The notes beneath the pieces were generated by a model that was not told the DNA's origin, did no database searches, and was given only the letters and a program-made list of their open reading frames with translations. Both the position numbers and the translations under genes were made by a program. A DNA stretch of 6,621 nt from Kiritimatiellia bacterium (GTDB taxonomy: Bacteria; Verrucomicrobiota; Kiritimatiellia; RFP12; UBA1067). The stretch is from the NCBI GenBank assembly GCA_017389885.1, contig JAFPDR010000002.1:1-6621 (forward strand). Reading direction: 5' to 3'. Shown here in pieces: positions 1 to 6,621 of the stretch. Position 1 is the stretch's first letter; every line of letters begins with the position of its first letter.

Positions 1-2
1 GC

Positions 3-1532
3 TTCCAGCCGGTGCAGGTTGACGCTCCGAGCGAGGAGGACGCGATCTCGATCCTGCGCGGCATAAAGGAGCGCTTCGAAAAATACCACAACGTCCACAT
101 ACGAGACGAAGCACTCGTTAGCGCAGTCGTCCTGTCGTCGCGCTATATCCAGGACCGATTCCTCCCAGACAAGGCAATCGACCTTCTCGACGAGGCGTGC
201 GCGCGCATCAGGACGGAAATGGATTCCTGCCCGCAGGAACTCGACGAAATCTCGCGGCACGTCAGGCGCCTCGAGATCGAGGAGATCGCGCTCAAGAAGG
301 AGAAGGACGAAGCGTCCAAGAAGCGGCTCGAGGAGCTCCAGTCGGAGCTTAAGGCGCTTCGGGAGAAGATGGACGCGATGACGGCTCAGTGGAAGCGCGA
401 GAAGGCGGCGATCGAGGAGGTGCGCAAGGTGCGCGCGGACCTCGAGCAGGCGAGGATCCGCCACCAGCAGGCCGTGGACGCGGGCAATCTCAACGCCGCG
501 GCGAAGCTTCAGTACGGCGACATCCCTGCGCTTGAGAAGCGCCTCAGGGAGCACGAGGCGGCGGTGAAGTGCGGCGACGCGGCGCTCCTGAGCGAGGTCG
601 TGACGTCCGACGAAATCGCCGAGGTCGTCTCGCGCTGGAGCGGGATACCGGTGACGAAGCTCGTGGAGGGCGAGCGCGAGAAGCTGATGCGCCTCGGCGA
701 TGTGCTGCACCAGCGCGTCATCGGACAGGACAAGGCGGTGGAGGCTGTCGCGGACGCGGTCATACGCTCGCGCGCAGGCATCAAGAACCGCAACCGCCCC
801 GTGGGCGCGTTCCTCTTCCTCGGCCCGACGGGCGTCGGAAAGACCGAGCTTGCGAAGGCGCTCGCGCAGGAGCTCTTCGACGACGAGAACGCGATGGTGC
901 GCCTCGACATGTCCGAGTACATGGAGAAGTTCGCCGTCTCGCGCCTCGTCGGAGCGCCGCCCGGATACGTCGGCTACGACGAGGGCGGGCAGCTCACGGA
1001 GGCCGTGCGCAGGAAGCAGTTCTCCGTAGTCCTCCTCGACGAGATCGAGAAGGCGCATCCGGACGTCTTCAACATGCTGCTGCAGGTCCTCGACGACGGC
1101 AGGCTCACCGACAGCCACGGAAGGACCGTGTCGTTCAAGAACACCGTCATCATCATGACCTCTAACGCGCCGAAGGACTCGCTCAAGGACATCTTCCGCC
1201 CCGAGTTCCTGAACCGCCTCGACGAGATACTCGAGTTCGACTCGCTCAGCGAGGCGCAGATCGCGGAGATCGTGAAGCTCCAGCTGAAGGACTTCTCGAA
1301 GCGGCTTGCGGACCAGGGCTTCCGCCTTTCGGTCGACGACGCCGCGGTCGCGCAGCTCGCGAAGGACGGATACGACCCCGCCTTCGGCGCGCGTCCGGTG
1401 AAGCGCGCTATCCAGCGCGAGCTGGAGAACCCGATCGCGAAGGGCATCGTCGCCGGCAGGTACATGCCCGGCGCGGAGATAAAGGTCACGGCGAAGGACG
1501 GCTCGCTCGCCTTCGCCGGCGCCGCCGAATAA
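3..1532 (+). CDS. clpB: ATP-dependent disaggregase ClpB, 5'-truncated by window edge
   Basis: Hsp100 ring ATPase that threads aggregated proteins through its central pore together with DnaK/DnaJ in the cytosol. The frame is open from base 3 (Phe-Gln-Pro), and the GTG at 12 is an internal valine, because FQPV lies inside a conserved ClpB stretch at the end of the first ATPase module. What remains (509 residues) is: the end of AAA1 with KAIDLLDEA (57-65); the long coiled-coil middle domain (about 75-190) that separates ClpB from ClpA/ClpC; then AAA2 with Walker A GPTGVGKT (274-281), pore loop GYVGYDEGG (321-329), Walker B VVLLDE (342-347), the NRLDE arginine-finger region (404-408) and sensor 2 GAR (462-464). 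One oddity is that the segment between TSN (386-388) and FRPEFLNR is only 9 residues, about 20 shorter than in E. coli ClpB, and lacks the usual LGS after TSN. Identity is secure. Probably transcribed separately from the genes downstream. Confidence 0.97.
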   Translation, partial: FQPVQVDAPSEEDAISILRGIKERFEKYHNVHIRDEALVSAVVLSSRYIQDRFLPDKAIDLLDEACARIRTEMDSCPQELDEISRHVRRLEIEEIALKKEKDEASKKRLEELQSELKALREKMDAMTAQWKREKAAIEEVRKVRADLEQARIRHQQAVDAGNLNAAAKLQYGDIPALEKRLREHEAAVKCGDAALLSEVVTSDEIAEVVSRWSGIPVTKLVEGEREKLMRLGDVLHQRVIGQDKAVEAVADAVIRSRAGIKNRNRPVGAFLFLGPTGVGKTELAKALAQELFDDENAMVRLDMSEYMEKFAVSRLVGAPPGYVGYDEGGQLTEAVRRKQFSVVLLDEIEKAHPDVFNMLLQVLDDGRLTDSHGRTVSFKNTVIIMTSNAPKDSLKDIFRPEFLNRLDEILEFDSLSEAQIAEIVKLQLKDFSKRLADQGFRLSVDDAAVAQLAKDGYDPAFGARPVKRAIQRELENPIAKGIVAGRYMPGAEIKVTAKDGSLAFAGAAE

Positions 1533-1536
1533 AACA

Positions 1537-1569
1537 TTTTTGTTGCGCAGATGTTGCGTATTTGTTGCG
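1537..1569 (+). repeat. Three tandem 11-bp repeats ending in TGTTGCG (putative operator)
   Basis: Units are TTTTTGTTGCG (1537-1547), CAGATGTTGCG (1548-1558) and TATTTGTTGCG (1559-1569). All three share the last seven bases exactly, and units 1 and 3 match at 10 of 11. The array starts five bases after the clpB stop, in the only long non-coding stretch of the window. An 11-bp step places the shared bases on one face of the helix, as in operators bound by tandem response-regulator dimers. The centre lies about 70 bp upstream of the start site predicted from the -10 element, which suits an activator. The repeats are seen directly; the regulatory role is inferred, and no factor can be named. Confidence 0.55.
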
Positions 1570-1608
1570 AAGAAGTCATAGAGATGTAACACTTCCTTTT
1601 CCGCTTTT

Positions 1609-1617
1609 TGCGATAAT
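1609..1617 (+). promoter_or_regulatory. Extended -10 promoter element upstream of comM
   Basis: TGCGATAAT matches the extended -10 pattern TGnTATAAT at all but one defined base. It lies in an AT-richer island within very GC-rich DNA and would start transcription near 1624, giving a leader of about 35 bases before the comM ATG. No good TTGACA-like -35 sits 16-18 bp upstream (the region reads ACACTT). That fits an extended -10 promoter, possibly helped by a factor bound to the upstream repeats. It is the best candidate promoter for the whole comM-recA operon. Inferred from sequence only. Confidence 0.45.
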
Positions 1618-1658
1618 GTCTCCGTCATCTGAATTCATCAGAAAGGAACGGAGGCAAA

Positions 1659-3200
1659 ATGGTCGCAAGATGCTATTCGGGCGCGATTAACGGCGTGGAT
1701 GCGTCCACTGTCGAGATCGAGGTCAGCTCGGCGAAGTCGACGAGTTCGTTCGCCATCGTCGGTCTCCCCGACCAGGCGGTGAAGGAGGCGAAGGACCGCG
1801 TGTCGACCGCGCTCAAGAACTCGGGCTTCCGCTCGAAGGACGAGTACGCCATCACCGTCAACCTGGCGCCTGCGGACGTGCGCAAGGAAGGCCCCATATA
1901 CGACCTTCCCATCGCCGTCGCGCTCCTGCGCGCTACAAAGCGCCTCAGGAACGAGGAGCTCGAGGAGTACGCCTTCGCGGGCGAGCTTTCGCTCGCGGGC
2001 GGCGTGAGGCGCGTGAGGGGGATAATACCGATCGTCATGGAGATGCGCCGCATCGGGCGGCGCGCCGTGTTCGTCCCCGAGGAGAACGCCGAGGAGGCGA
2101 GCGTCGTTCCGGGGATAGACGTCATTCCCGTGAGGTCCCTCGCCGAGACCGTCGCGTGCCTCAACGGCGAGGTGAAGATAGAGCCGCACGCGACGGACCT
2201 CGCCGGGCTTGTCGCCGCCGAGGAGGGGCATGGCGACGACTTCGCGGACATCAAGGGCCAGGAGAACCTGCGGCGCGCCATCGAGACCGCCGTCGCGGGA
2301 GGGCACAACATGCTCATGATCGGCGCGCCCGGCTCCGGCAAGACGATGATCGCGCGGCGCATTCCGTCCATACTCCCGCCGATGACGCTGGAGGAGGCGC
2401 TTGAGGTCTCCAAGATCCACTCCGTCGCGGGGCGGGAGAAGGGCGGCGGCGTTTTCGTGACGTCGCGACCTTTCCGCGCGCCGCACCACACCGTGAGCTC
2501 CATCGGCCTCCTCGGCGGGGGGACGCGTCCCGTGCCGGGCGAGGTGTCGCTCGCGCACAGGGGCGTTCTCTTCCTCGACGAGTTCGCGGAGTTCCCGAGG
2601 AGCGCGCTCGAGGTGCTTCGCCAGCCGCTCGAGGACGGACACGTCGCGGTGTCCCGCGCGGCGGCGGCGTACGACTTCCCGTCTCGCTTCATGCTCGTCG
2701 CGGCGATGAATCCGTGTCCGTGCGGATACTATCCGACGGACGACTGCAGGTGCAACCAGGCGCAGGTGCTGAAGTACCAGCAGCGCGTGTCCGGTCCGGT
2801 TCTCGACCGAATCGACATCCAGTGCGGCGTCCGGGCCGTTAAGCCGGACGAGCTGGAGAACCTGAAGCCGGGCGAGTCGAGCGCTGAGATAAGGTCGCGC
2901 GTCGTCGCCGCGAGGGCGATACAGGCCGAGCGCTACCGCGGGATGCGCGGGGTGGTCACGAACGCGGACGCGAAGAGCCGGGACCTGAAGGACATCTGCC
3001 GGCTGACCGACAGGGCGGCCGACGCTCTCCACGACAAGCTCCACGCCCTCAGCCTCTCGGCGCGCGCGTACGACCGCGTCCTCAGGGTGGCGCGCACATG
3101 CGCGGACCTCAAGGGGCGTCTCGACGTCACTGAGGAGGACGTGTTCGCGGCGGCGAGCTACCGCGAGCTCGACCGCGGGGGGGACTCTTTCTGGGCCTGA
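1659..3200 (+). CDS. comM: ComM/YifB-family Mg-chelatase-like AAA+ ATPase (DNA branch-migration helicase)
   Basis: Hexameric AAA+ motor of the Mg-chelatase-like family. In Vibrio, ComM drives bidirectional branch migration so that RecA-paired DNA can be integrated during natural transformation. The 513 residues match the family's usual length. The N-terminal ChlI-like (S5-domain-2/Lon-like) fold spans about 1-170 with the typical FAIVGLPD (31-38). The ATPase follows: FADIKGQ (195-201), Walker A GAPGSGKT (222-229), RAPHHT (273-278), Walker B VLFLDE (303-308) and LDRIDI (382-387). A cysteine pair-of-pairs CPC...CRC (C353, C355, C363, C365) is a likely zinc site. The C-terminal helical domain has LSLSARAYDRVLRVART (464-480) and ends YRELDR. 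The ATG at 1659 follows GGAGG (1650-1654), only 4 bases away. First gene of the proposed recombination operon. The family is widespread in non-competent bacteria too, so competence itself is not proven. Confidence 0.95.
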   Translation: MVARCYSGAINGVDASTVEIEVSSAKSTSSFAIVGLPDQAVKEAKDRVSTALKNSGFRSKDEYAITVNLAPADVRKEGPIYDLPIAVALLRATKRLRNEELEEYAFAGELSLAGGVRRVRGIIPIVMEMRRIGRRAVFVPEENAEEASVVPGIDVIPVRSLAETVACLNGEVKIEPHATDLAGLVAAEEGHGDDFADIKGQENLRRAIETAVAGGHNMLMIGAPGSGKTMIARRIPSILPPMTLEEALEVSKIHSVAGREKGGGVFVTSRPFRAPHHTVSSIGLLGGGTRPVPGEVSLAHRGVLFLDEFAEFPRSALEVLRQPLEDGHVAVSRAAAAYDFPSRFMLVAAMNPCPCGYYPTDDCRCNQAQVLKYQQRVSGPVLDRIDIQCGVRAVKPDELENLKPGESSAEIRSRVVAARAIQAERYRGMRGVVTNADAKSRDLKDICRLTDRAADALHDKLHALSLSARAYDRVLRVARTCADLKGRLDVTEEDVFAAASYRELDRGGDSFWA

Positions 3201-3247
3201 GTCGGGTCCGGGGAAACAAAGACACGAAAAAGGAAAGGAACGAGAAG

Positions 3248-3847
3248 ATGAACGATACAATGCAGCAGAAGATCGCGCAGGCTCCGGGGCAGTTCCGTCC
3301 CAGCCTCGCGCTCTACCACGCCAACGGAAAGGGCACCGGAGGGGCGATCAAGATGACGCTCCATCCGGCTCACGACGACACTGACGGATGCATCATGCTG
3401 ACGATGGCGAACCAGCTGACGATCGGCGACAGGCGCGGGCCGAACCCGACCTTCCCGAGGTTCGACTGGGACGGCAGGCTCACGGTGAAGCTCGACTTCA
3501 CGGACCTCACCGAGATGCTGATGGTCTTCCGCGGCGAGCGCGAGTCGATAGGGGACGGGAAGGGCCTCTTCCACACGACCGCGCAGTTCACGACGAGCAT
3601 CAACCTCCGGCACATCGTGGAGCCGACGAGCTGCTATTCGCTCGAGCTGTTCCGCACTTCGCGGGACGGACAGGGCGAGTCGCGCTCGCGGTTCATACTT
3701 GCGCCGAACGAGGCGCTCGGGGTGAGCCTCGCGATCGAGAAGTCGTTCGGCGTCATCTGCTTCGGCATTCCGATGCTGGTGCCGCACGACACGTCCAAGT
3801 ACCGCCGCGAGACGCGGGAGGCGCGCAATGCCCAGGCAGCGGCGTGA
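3248..3847 (+). CDS. Whirly-like (putative ssDNA-binding) protein, family otherwise unrecognised
   Basis: 199 residues with no signal peptide or membrane segment. The protein reads as two copies of a strand-strand-strand-helix unit, roughly 32-103 and 112-176. The first ends in FDWDGRLTVKLDFTDLTEML (72-91) then RGERES (95-100); the second has YSLELF (130-135), ESRSRFILAP (144-153) and a helix around 154-166. This order, and the F/Y-D-W ... V-x-L-x-x-T-D/E-L/I ... R-x-S and LFH stretch, resemble plant Whirly proteins as I remember them (YDW, VTEIGTL, RES, FFH). Whirly tetramers bind ssDNA and limit illegitimate recombination in organelles. The tail (180-199) is charged and probably disordered. 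The start ATG follows AAAGGA (3234-3239) by 8 bases; a second ATG at 3260 is possible. It begins 47 bp after comM and overlaps yraN by 20 bp. That it is a real gene is near certain. The Whirly assignment is inferred by eye; PC4- or PUR-like folds are alternatives. Confidence 0.9.
   Translation: MNDTMQQKIAQAPGQFRPSLALYHANGKGTGGAIKMTLHPAHDDTDGCIMLTMANQLTIGDRRGPNPTFPRFDWDGRLTVKLDFTDLTEMLMVFRGERESIGDGKGLFHTTAQFTTSINLRHIVEPTSCYSLELFRTSRDGQGESRSRFILAPNEALGVSLAIEKSFGVICFGIPMLVPHDTSKYRRETREARNAQAAA
3816..3821 (+). promoter_or_regulatory. Ribosome binding site of yraN inside the upstream gene
   Basis: GGGAGG lies six bases before the ATG at 3828, within the last codons of the Whirly-like gene. It supports this start, and hence the 20-bp overlap, over any later start in yraN. 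The arrangement suggests translational coupling: ribosomes finishing the upstream gene expose or reuse this site. Confidence 0.7.
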
Positions 3848-4271
3848 GGCCTCGAACGTCGGCGTGCGCCACGGCGAGTGGGGCGAAGACGTCGCGGTCG
3901 AGTTCCTCCGTGTCCACGGATACGAGATCGTCGACCGAAACGTCCGCCCCTGCTCGCGCGACAGGAGGCTCGAGATCGACGTCGTGGCGTACGACAGGAT
4001 GTACGACGTGATGGCGTTCGTCGAGGTCAAGCAGCACGCGGCGAAGAGTCCGTTCGCCACGCGCCTCCGGAGCGTCGACCGCCGAAAGCGCGACCTGCTG
4101 AGGCGCGCGTGCAGGACGTGGATCGCGAAGGAGCGCTGGGCCGGCGCGTACCGCTTCGACGTCATAGAGGTGTACGGCACGCCGAACGCGGCGTGCCGCG
4201 CCGAGATAGACCACATTCCGGGCGTGAGGCTCTTCGAGAAGTCGGAGCGCTTCGTGGACTGGAGCAAATGA
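3828..4271 (+). CDS. yraN: UPF0102/YraN-family protein, PD-(D/E)XK nuclease-like fold
   Basis: 147 residues, near the family's usual 110-130 with slightly long ends. Family members have a restriction-endonuclease-like core and no firmly settled role; they are often found near DNA-processing genes. Visible marks are: GEWGED (16-21), where the conserved G-x-x-G-E opens the first helix; [11 protein letters not shown] (30-40); EID (49-51); FVEVK (64-68), giving the likely metal-binding set E20, D51, E66 and K68; a basic helix [11 protein letters not shown] (84-94); and RFDVIEV (109-115). The residues before EID are RRL rather than the common GGE-type turn, a minor departure. The start at 3828 is supported by GGGAGG six bases upstream. 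It overlaps the Whirly-like gene by 20 bp and ends 28 bp before recA, which suggests co-expression with recombination genes. Family assignment is strong; nuclease activity is inferred from the motif. Confidence 0.9.
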
Positions 4272-4285
4272 AGTCAGGAACTCAC

Positions 4286-4292
4286 AAGGAGG
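4286..4292 (+). promoter_or_regulatory. Strong Shine-Dalgarno sequence of recA
   Basis: AAGGAGG is a full anti-16S match, seven bases before the recA ATG at 4300. It is the best ribosome site in the window, stronger than those of comM or yraN. Strong independent translation of recA would fit its need to be more abundant than its operon partners. No promoter hexamers fit in the 28-bp gap. Confidence 0.8.
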
Positions 4293-4299
4293 AACCGAT

Positions 4300-5310
4300 A
4301 TGGGCAATCTGCTGGAAAACGTGATGAAGGAGATCAGGAAGCAGTTCGGCGAGATGTCCGTGCTGCGCCTCGGCGACGCCGCGCAGAAGGACGTCGAGGC
4401 CGTGTCGACGGGGGCTCTGGGGCTGGACCTCGCGCTCGGCGTGGGAGGGCTCCCGAAGGGGCGCATAGTAGAGCTCTACGGGCACGAGTCGTCCGGAAAG
4501 ACGACCCTCGCGCTGCACGCCGTCGCGAACGTGCAGAAGGCGGGCGGCACTGCGGCGTTCATCGACGCGGAGCACGCGCTCGACCCGGGCTACGCGCGCA
4601 AGATAGGCGTCGACCTCGCGAACCTCGTCGTCTCGCAGCCGTCGAGCGGCGAGGAGGCGCTCACGATCTGCGAGGAGCTCGTGAAGTCGGGGGCTGTAGA
4701 CATCGTGGTGGTCGACTCGGTCGCGGCGCTCGTTCCGCAGGCGGAGATCGACGGCGCGATGGGCGACAGCCACGTGGGGCTCCAGGCGCGCCTCATGTCG
4801 CAGGCGATGCGCAAGCTCACCGCCGCGATAGCGCAGACGAAGACGCTGTGCATATTCACGAACCAGGTGCGCGAGAAGATCGGCGTCATGTTCGGCAACC
4901 CCGAGACGACTCCGGGCGGGAAGGCGCTCAAGTTCTACGCGAGCTGCCGTCTGCAGGTGCAGAGGATCGGCGCGATAAAGTCCGCGGCTGGCGAGGTCGT
5001 GGGGAACCGCACGCGCGTGAAGGTCGTGAAGAACAAGGTGGCATCGCCGTTCACCGAGGCGGAGTTCGACATACTCTACTCGTGCGGGATATCGTGGGAG
5101 GGTTCCGTTCTCGACGCCGCGCTGGCGCGCGGTATTGTCGAGCGGCGAGGGAGCTGGCTCGCGCACGGGAGCGAGCAGCTTGCGCAGGGCTCGCTCGCGG
5201 CGATCGCGTACCTGAGGGAGCATCCAGAGGTGGCGGATGCGATCGCGCAGGAGGTGCGGGAGACGCCGTTCGACCCGGCGAAGGCCAAGGCGGCGAGAAA
5301 GGCGGCATGA
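4300..5310 (+). CDS. recA: Recombinase RecA
   Basis: ATP-dependent strand-exchange protein: it forms filaments on ssDNA, pairs it with homologous duplex, and in many bacteria triggers LexA cleavage. The 336 residues are typical (E. coli 353), with a short N-terminal polymerisation helix. Motifs: Walker A GHESSGKT (61-68), with His where the family nearly always has Pro (GPESSGKT); catalytic Glu in FIDAEHALD (E91); Walker B VVVDS (136-140); loop 1 region [18 protein letters not shown] (148-165); FTNQVR (186-191); loop 2 [15 protein letters not shown] (198-212); and KVVKNK (241-246). The C-terminal tail is basic and Ala/Lys-rich (KAKAARKAA), not the acidic tail that restrains E. coli RecA. AAGGAGG lies 7 bases before the ATG. 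There is no room for its own promoter in the 28-bp gap, so it probably depends on the promoter before comM or one hidden within yraN. It overlaps the next gene by 4 bp. Confidence 0.98.
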
Positions 5311-6470
5311 TCTGCGAGCGGCACGTCCAGGCGATCTGGTACGACCGCGCCCTCAGGCCCGGCAGGCTCTACGCGGTCGGGAGGTCCGCCGCGTCCGGGG
5401 GCGAGGTGCGCGTCGTAGATCCCGGCGCGTGGAACCAGGGCGCAGGGCCCGACTTCCTCGGCGCGGTGATCGAGGTCGGTCCCGAGCGCACGCGGCTTTG
5501 CGGAGACGTCGAGGTGCACATGGCGCCTTCGGACTGGTCCGCGCACGGACACGGAGACGATCCCGCGTACCGCAACGTGGTCGCTCACGTGACGTGGCGG
5601 TACGGACCTCCCCCCGCGTCGCTTCCGCCGCGCGCGGTCTCGATCTGGCTCGGACGCTTCCTCGCCTCCGACCCGGGCTTCGCCCCTGAGGCGATCGACC
5701 TGGGCGCGTATCCGTTCGCGAGGCTTCCGTCGGACGAGCGGGCGTGCTTCGAGGCGTTCGAGGGGAAGCCGGACGAGGCGCGCGAGCTTCTCGCCGAGGC
5801 TGGGCGCAGGCGCATCGCGGAGAAGGCCTCGCGAATGAGGCGGCAGCTTGCGGACTGCGCGGACTCCGCTCAGCTGTTCTACGCGGAGATAATGGGCGCG
5901 CTCGGCTACAGCAGGAACGCGGGTGCGTTCCGCGCGATCGCCGCGTCCGTCCCCTACCGCCGCCTAGTCGCCGAGCCGGAGAACGCGGCGGCCGCCCTCG
6001 TCGCCGCTGCGTCGTTCGCGGACGTCGAGCGCGGCGGGCGTCCGTGCAACGCGCCGGAGCGCAGGCTCGAGGCGGCGGCGGAGCTGTTCGTGTCGACGCC
6101 TGTGATGAGCCTTGCGGACGCGTATGACTTCTCGCCGAAGTCCTGCCGCGAGCTCGTCGGGACCATGTCCGCGCGGCACATAGTGGGGCGCGGACGCGGC
6201 GCGGCGGTGCTCGCGAACATAGTCGTGCCGTGGGCGATGGCGGAGGGGCGGATAGAGCGCGCGCCGGACTGGCTTCCGCCCGAGGACGTCTCGGAGCCGG
6301 TGCGGCTGATGGCGTTCAGGCTGCTCGGACGCGACCACAACCCCGCCGCGTTCTACTCCGGCAACGGGCTCCACATCCAGGGGCTTATCGAGATATACCG
6401 GCGGTGGTGCAGTCCGATCCACCCCTACTGCGAGACGTGCCCCGCGTGGCGCCTGAGTGCCCCAAAATAA
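5307..6470 (+). CDS. DUF2851 family protein, possible nuclease-like core and C-terminal cysteine cluster
   Basis: 387 residues, no signal or membrane segment, function unknown. The family is recognised from [13 protein letters not shown] (38-50), [17 protein letters not shown] (66-82) and NVVAHV (90-95), which match the conserved N-terminal block of DUF2851. The layout P-D-F, a strand, then G-D-V-E-V-H resembles a PD-(D/E)XK site (D49, E69) with His in place of the Lys. The middle (about 140-330) is helical and Ala/Arg-rich. The C-terminus carries C368-x6-C375-x2-C378, spaced like the first three cysteines of the iron-sulphur loop of endonuclease III-type glycosylases, but with Ser rather than Cys at the fourth position. 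The ATG at 5307 overlaps the recA stop (ATGA), with GAGAAAGG four bases upstream, indicating translational coupling to recA. Family assignment is firm; both the nuclease and metal-site readings are my inference. Confidence 0.88.
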
Positions 6471-6620
6471 CGTAGGCGCGCAAAGCGCCGCGCCGTTGCG
6501 CGACACCGCAGGCACCCCCATCTGTTCGGCGAACGCCAGCGTGTTGAAGCCGACGACCACGTCGTTGGATGTGGCCGGTATGAGATTCGCGCCGAAGCCG
6601 GCGCTGACGCCCGCGAAAGC
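6471..6620 (-). pseudogene. Fragment resembling an AbgT-type (p-aminobenzoyl-glutamate) transporter, open at the window edge
   Basis: Minus-strand frame entering at the right edge. It reads AFAGVSAGFGANLIPATSND and continues VVVGFNTLAFAEQMGVPAV, then GAALCAPT near 6471. The Ala-Phe-Ala-Gly-Val-Ser-x-Gly-Phe-x-Ala-Asn-Leu pattern followed by a D-x-x-x-x-G-x segment is like an internal loop of AbgT-family inner-membrane transporters as I remember them. In that family it lies well before the C-terminus, with several membrane segments still to follow. Here the frame instead runs on without a stop through the antisense of DUF2851 (to about 5964), giving charged, Arg-rich sequence with no membrane character. 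So either this is a truncated remnant, a junction artefact of assembly, or a chance match. The plus-strand frame over the same bases is also open but resembles nothing I know. The 5' part lies outside the window. Confidence 0.3.
6475..6494. terminator. GC-rich hairpin after the last operon gene, weak terminator candidate
   Basis: GGCGCG (6475-6480) can pair with CGCGCC (6489-6494), or GGCGC (6475-6479) with GCGCC (6485-6489), five bases after the DUF2851 stop. No T tract follows on the plus strand. Read on the minus strand, it is followed by the T-rich stretch TACGTTATTTT. In DNA this GC-rich such a pairing can arise by chance, so confidence is low. Confidence 0.25.
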
Positions 6621-6621
6621 C

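Follow-up and report, generated by a model that had tools for sequence, protein, structure and literature searches.

Between comM and the yraN-recA genes of a Kiritimatiellia bacterium lies a gene, termed WHL (Whirly-like), whose 199-residue product is predicted to share fold and ancestry with the plant Whirly proteins. The stretch of DNA that was analysed, called the window below, comprises 6,621 nucleotides (assembly GCA_017389885.1, contig JAFPDR010000002.1, positions 1 to 6,621, forward strand). The list of open reading frames (ORFs) together with Pfam assignments placed a 199-residue ORF exactly where an earlier sequence-only reading had located it. The following features were assigned in the window:

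1659..3200, plus strand: comM (Mg-chelatase-type AAA+ protein of the ComM kind; Pfam), the conserved upstream neighbour
3234..3239, plus strand: Shine-Dalgarno-like AAAGGA, 8 bases 5' of the WHL ATG, read directly from the sequence; putative ribosome-binding function
3248..3847, plus strand: WHL gene (199 aa; ORF, homologues, model and fold match)
3329..3340, plus strand: codons of K28-G29-T30-G31, a KGTG-like motif of the family (G29 and G31 invariant in alignment A2)
3461..3469, plus strand: codons of F72-D73-W74, aligned with plant YDW (profile and multiple alignments)
3572..3574, plus strand: codon of H109, aligned with the His of plant FFH (alignment with plants; invariant in alignments A4 and A5)
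3710..3712, plus strand: codon of E155, which opens the second long helix and aligns with plant AEF (alignments)
3828..4271, plus strand: yraN (UPF0102; Pfam), the start of which overlaps the WHL end by 20 bases
4300..5310, plus strand: recA (Pfam)
5307-6470, same strand: DUF2851 gene
5' of comM, same strand: end of a ClpB-type gene

The neighbourhood of WHL was compared in 35 loci that were obtained by scanning genome contigs with close-family patterns; their titles read Kiritimatiellae/Kiritimatiellia, Verrucomicrobia, Lentisphaerae or plain uncultured bacterium. comM was found upstream of WHL in 34 loci and the order comM-WHL-yraN in 33, the exceptions being L029 (contig edge) and L035 (stray copy). 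In 28 of the 35 loci yraN was followed within about 150 bases by a recA of at least 75% identity. The recA position was occupied by a diverged or short RecA-like match in L019 (6967-7377; 29%) and L020 (3155-3823; 42%), and recA beside WHL was missing in L005 and L029 (contig ends), L021, L031 and L035. Among 444 candidates, 353 WHL homologues were found at E<=1e-3; the few source names among the matches listed read only 'hypothetical protein', and no Pfam domain was present among the matches listed for them (120 rows). The closest contig, L001 (Kiritimatiellae bacterium isolate Tb.RUG.298), encodes a WHL protein 96% identical to that of the window, with a ratio of non-synonymous to synonymous substitution rates (dN/dS) of 0.108; over five more distant pairs, in which silent sites are partly saturated, dN/dS was 0.20-0.54. 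Given the 353 homologues, the dN/dS of 0.108 and the order kept in 33 of 35 loci, positions 3248-3847 are a real, conserved gene and not a chance ORF. The spacer that precedes WHL measures 47 bases. Inspection of positions 3100-4400 revealed no promoter- or terminator-like sites, which fits a single transcription unit, though this is a weak argument.

The homology to Whirly, which the sequence-only reading had proposed, emerged from the wider family. Alignments A1 (close relatives only), A2 (18 rows), A3 (four plant Whirlies) and A4 (35 rows including distant members) were used. Profile-profile comparison of A4 with A3 gave 95% and an E value of 3.9e-8 over 125 columns, and comparison of A4 with 124 plant sequences gave 92% (E 7.8e-7). 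In 12 control pairs, made with reversed profiles and with the ComM, YraN, RecA, DUF2851 and SSB families, P never fell below 0.11. After removal of L095-L098, A4 still matched the four plant Whirlies with E 4.6e-5; a 65-row alignment (two pieces of L043 left out) gave 5.7e-5 in the same comparison, and ten controls for its comparison with the 124 plant sequences stood at 0.13 or more. When ten distant members were scored with the Whirly model PF08536, L096 (31.2 bits), L097 (30.3), L098 (31.2) and L091 (24.6) exceeded the curated cut-off of 23 bits, below which the six others and the window WHL remained. In a PDB search the A4 profile matched StWhy2 best (E 0.0099); the only further matches were a StWhy2 mutant and coatomer beta (E 0.084). 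A hidden Markov model of the four plant Whirlies, run over 5836 ORFs of which 66 belong to the WHL family (two pieces of one split gene counted), placed WHL proteins at 25 of the top 40 ranks, with a best E value of only 0.39.

Other families were matched as well. Matches to the coatomer appendage domain PF14806 occurred in 33 of the 66 members (E 0.0064 at best), always below cut-off and along a short stretch around FDW; this domain was not among the fold matches listed and was rejected. Isoamylase and SDO1, both from PDB profile searching, were taken as noise. The sole PDB sequence match of the window WHL was MRP1 (phmmer, E 0.49). Among the 66 close members PF08536 was matched by one (E 0.27) and the MRP family PF09387 by five (best E 0.011), all below cut-off. 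WHL might be pictured as an RNA-binding or matchmaking protein similar to trypanosome MRP1/MRP2, or as a regulator of the Bpur kind, acting on transcripts or promoters. MRP binds guide RNA according to the title of 2gje, and PUR-domain proteins such as PURA and Borrelia Bpur combine related strand-helix repeats with nucleic-acid binding and provide a bacterial example, as stated in excerpts of PMC3764826 and PMC7990775. We regard this explanation as unlikely, since the Pfam model passed above cut-off by distant members is Whirly and not MRP, and since the recurrent neighbours that can be named are ssb, recA, comM and yraN. Trypanosoma MRP1/MRP2 also matched WHL with a lower Z score in the fold comparison and without a significant profile match.

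An AlphaFold model of the window WHL comprises strands at residues 19-24, 32-39, 48-58 and 78-82 and a helix at 84-94 in the first repeat, and strands at 107-110, 114-123, 129-138 and 144-151 and a helix at 153-172 in the second. The duplication that the sequence-only reading had described was thus present in the predicted model; the three strands per repeat of that description were not, each repeat being made of four strands and a helix instead. The predicted models show the arrangement of the Whirly superfamily, two antiparallel four-stranded sheets and two helices in beta-beta-beta-beta-alpha repeats, and no confident match to another fold was obtained that would have spoken against the assignment. 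Plant Whirlies were the top fold matches of two models, that of the window WHL and that of a distant ssb-linked relative 26% identical to it. Bpur and the whirly-shaped SsgB are known bacterial cousins of the fold. A Whirly-type fold that serves protein contacts and binds no nucleic acid, perhaps the case in the FtsZ-recruiting SsgB of Streptomyces, is a highly improbable description of WHL: the Z score falls from 17 to less than 8, which is the level of common arrangements according to the tool's note, and the named neighbours are ssDNA (single-stranded DNA) genes. In BFVD, the uncharacterised Bacillus phage proteins A0A222Z2Z6, W5QUN3 and G9B1Y1 have a related predicted fold (E 2e-4 to 6e-3).

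The FDW...LFH series was in register with plant YDW...FFH, as had been claimed from the letters alone; FDW was aligned in profile-profile comparisons, and the register was also seen when StWhy2 was aligned to the family profile by hmmsearch. A 13-row alignment including three plant Whirlies contained five invariant columns, namely G29, D73, W74, H109 and E155 in the numbering of the window protein. Only D73, W74, H109 and E155 are relied on here, because the N-terminal part around G29 looks misregistered. The second-strand motif KGKAAL, present in plant Whirlies (PF08536; StWhy2, AtWHY1-3), is missing from the window protein, where its nearest reading is KGTGGAI, and the KGTG-like motif perhaps stands in place of the plant KGKAAL strand. 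Excerpts of PMC9070903 report that algal and Marchantia Whirly-like proteins also lack KGKAAL. Plant Whirlies carry an acidic/aromatic C-terminus according to part of PMC6963530, unlike the window WHL, the last 20 residues of which include, counted by eye, three acidic, five basic and one aromatic residue plus one His. The WHL proteins of L066, L070, L074 and L075 have short, mostly acidic tails with a final F or PF that resemble the SSB tip; no such tip is present in the window protein. Most bacterial rows aligned differ from the plant proteins also by a longer loop before FDW, and WHL is bacterial and encoded beside recA or ssb. Judged by sequence and model, WHL is a Whirly homologue with the same predicted fold and not a canonical plant-type Whirly, because the window protein scores below the Pfam cut-off and lacks both KGKAAL and the acidic/aromatic tail.

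The distant family was sought within its own phylum. A search with A2 in 288 genomes identified 40 places in 39 genomes, and a search with A4 in 387 genomes identified WHL in 52 genomes at 54 places, a sample that overlaps the 35 loci (for example, G003 is the genome of L003). PF08536 itself matched 7 of the 387 genomes, six of them over cut-off, and none of 14 control genomes. The commonest context, seen in 23 of the 54 places, was an ssb gene upstream of WHL, in the same orientation and at most about 510 bases away; comM and/or yraN lay beside WHL in 10 places and a possibly helix-turn-helix (HTH)-type gene upstream of it in four. All 23 linked ssb genes exceeded the Pfam SSB cut-off, and all 23 genomes contain at least two SSB places. 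From the domain start the linked SSBs measure 134-153 residues. An acidic tail that closes with PF was present in 17 of 24 of them, and in every one of the 15 other SSBs and five window-clade SSBs read. In a tree of 24 linked, 15 other and five window-clade SSBs, the last two sets being hand-picked, linked SSBs stood mostly apart from the others (two label changes, compared with 14.9 on average after shuffling), and a single origin of the linked SSBs appeared in only 36% of bootstrap trees. Window-clade genomes yielded one SSB match each where one was found (15 of 20, two of the 15 partial); the five misses may reflect incomplete genomes. WHL is therefore no replacement for SSB, which is present besides it in 15 of 20 window-clade and 23 of 23 ssb-linked genomes. 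The two proteins are unrelated in fold, bacterial SSB being an OB-fold protein (PF00436), and, their genes being immediate or close neighbours in 23 of the 54 places, they probably share a task.

Several loci of this wider set showed further features. L081 contains a small 23S-intervening-sequence-type gene between ssb and WHL, and L152 has two very similar ssb genes (3594-4067 and 5487-5960) upstream of WHL. Near the ssb-WHL pair of 12 of the 23 ssb-linked loci, a pair of neighbouring genes, about 290 and 235 codons long, was present (for example L076:2279-3858, L077:5334-6871 and L144:7191-8842); those of L076 had no Pfam match. An ERCC4-type nuclease with helix-hairpin-helix motifs, of a type rare in bacteria, is encoded directly 3' of WHL in L083 (5315-5965), and comEC adjoins WHL in L066. 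The HTH-like gene is short and occurs in L068 (6458-6970), L069 (6036-6572), L074 and L075, with a Pfam match (E 0.017) in L068 only. Diverged WHL copies in L035 (7971-8450), L094 (3486-3914) and L155 (6065-6775), on whose stretches neither comM nor yraN was found, are second copies in their genomes. Three WHL copies (L176, L177, L178) were detected by A2 in viral-class contigs; L098 and L091 gave no match in viral contigs, nor did the window WHL or L098 in named phages and plasmids. Mobile elements may carry the family as well.

A role in ssDNA metabolism gains an argument from the many relatives encoded next to ssb, and WHL probably handles ssDNA in recombination and repair. The plant proteins have also been described as architectural components of nucleoids (PMC9070903, in excerpt), and WHL could accordingly be conceived as a nucleoid-compacting or transcription factor similar to WHIRLY1, with a repair-gene neighbourhood that reflects co-expression only. 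This appears quite unlikely to us, as pairing with two different ssDNA gene sets in different clades is more specific than a general nucleoid protein would lead one to expect. Taken together, we consider it likely that WHL is a bacterial Whirly homologue, probably tetrameric, that holds ssDNA as an accessory to the ordinary machinery of the cell. The two four-stranded sheets and two helices would most likely assemble as a tetramer, across whose sheets ssDNA could be held without strict sequence preference. WHL would then protect ssDNA or pass it on for RecA, SSB or ComM, coating it or handing it over during recombination, repair or natural transformation, and might, like the plant Whirlies, limit annealing at short repeats. 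PMC6963530 describes tetramers and 24-mers of plant Whirlies on ssDNA, and rearrangements at microhomologous repeats that accumulate when both WHY1 and WHY3 are missing; when polymerase IB and RecA are lacking as well, the resulting quadruple mutant does not survive (PMC9070903).

Loading of RecA in place of the usual mediators is less likely and not favoured, because RecR was present in 54 and RecO in 52 of 56 genomes (35 each among the 36 of these that bear WHL); RecF was not searched. RecO exceeded its curated cut-off in only 28 of the 56, many window-clade ones lying below it, and the short RecR zinc-finger model was misleading, with 0 of 20. ComM is a branch-migration helicase of transformation, and a role of WHL in that process is a guess from comM and from comEC of L066.

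Several observations weigh against the proposed role and the kinship on which it builds. The sequence link to Whirly leans on distant family members, as comparisons with narrower or reduced alignments were weaker: hhalign against Whirly gave only 7% (P 0.0051) for A1 and 31% (P 5.2e-4) for A2, and against the 124 plant sequences the 65-row alignment reached 10% (P 0.0033) and A4 without L095-L098 only 24% (P 8.2e-4). The window WHL alone matched no Pfam family at E<=1, and a PDB profile search with close relatives yielded no Whirly. Several VIA alignments had a high root mean square deviation, up to 7.0 (AtWHY1 chain A). Gene neighbourhood indicates shared use at most, not contact. In 17 of the 54 places none of ssb, comM, yraN or an HTH-like gene was found in the fetched stretch, some of which are cut by contig ends; no recA was found beside WHL in L021 and L031, and that of L019 and L020 is diverged. 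WHL is present in only 52 of 387 genomes and is thus not generally needed. ComEC and DprA, found in 30 of 30 genomes tested, are no argument for transformation, because they also occur in most controls (10 and 11 of 14).

A 62-row tree was built from 45 of the 54 places, the window, seven of the 35 loci and nine plant rows; L036, L067, L071, L075, L093, L094, L099, L102 and L155 were left out, and L070 carried the label 'oth', with yraN close by. The comM/recA clade of the window was nested in a larger bacterial group, with the ssb-linked L073, L150 and L152 as nearest outer branches on that side (supports 90/84, 93/79 and 96/87). The simplest reading is that WHL was first paired with ssb and came to lie beside recA later; as the root of the tree is not fixed, this order is an interpretation rather than a result. 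The nine plant rows grouped with five bacterial rows (L096-L098, L142, L143) with support 97/99, although the branch that bears them is 3.65 changes per column long; a transfer of Whirly from bacteria to plants is possible. Rather doubtful, in our estimate, is a fuller scenario in which a Whirly family of Verrucomicrobia and Kiritimatiellae served as dedicated partner of a second SSB, was re-wired into the comM-yraN-recA operon to manage ssDNA for recombination or DNA uptake, and gave rise to the plant organelle Whirlies by lateral transfer.

Whirlies have been termed plant-specific (PMC9070903) or unique to plants (PMC6963530). No paper on a bacterial Whirly was found in the openly licensed literature, among the matches listed; bacterial PF08536 matches may already stand unremarked in databases. 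A bacterial family of the same predicted fold, encoded beside ssb or recA, offers a simple system for the action of Whirly on ssDNA, SSB and RecA, and through it the origin of the plant Whirlies becomes testable. It further suggests that uncultured bacteria, largely of the gut, possess an accessory ssDNA protein.
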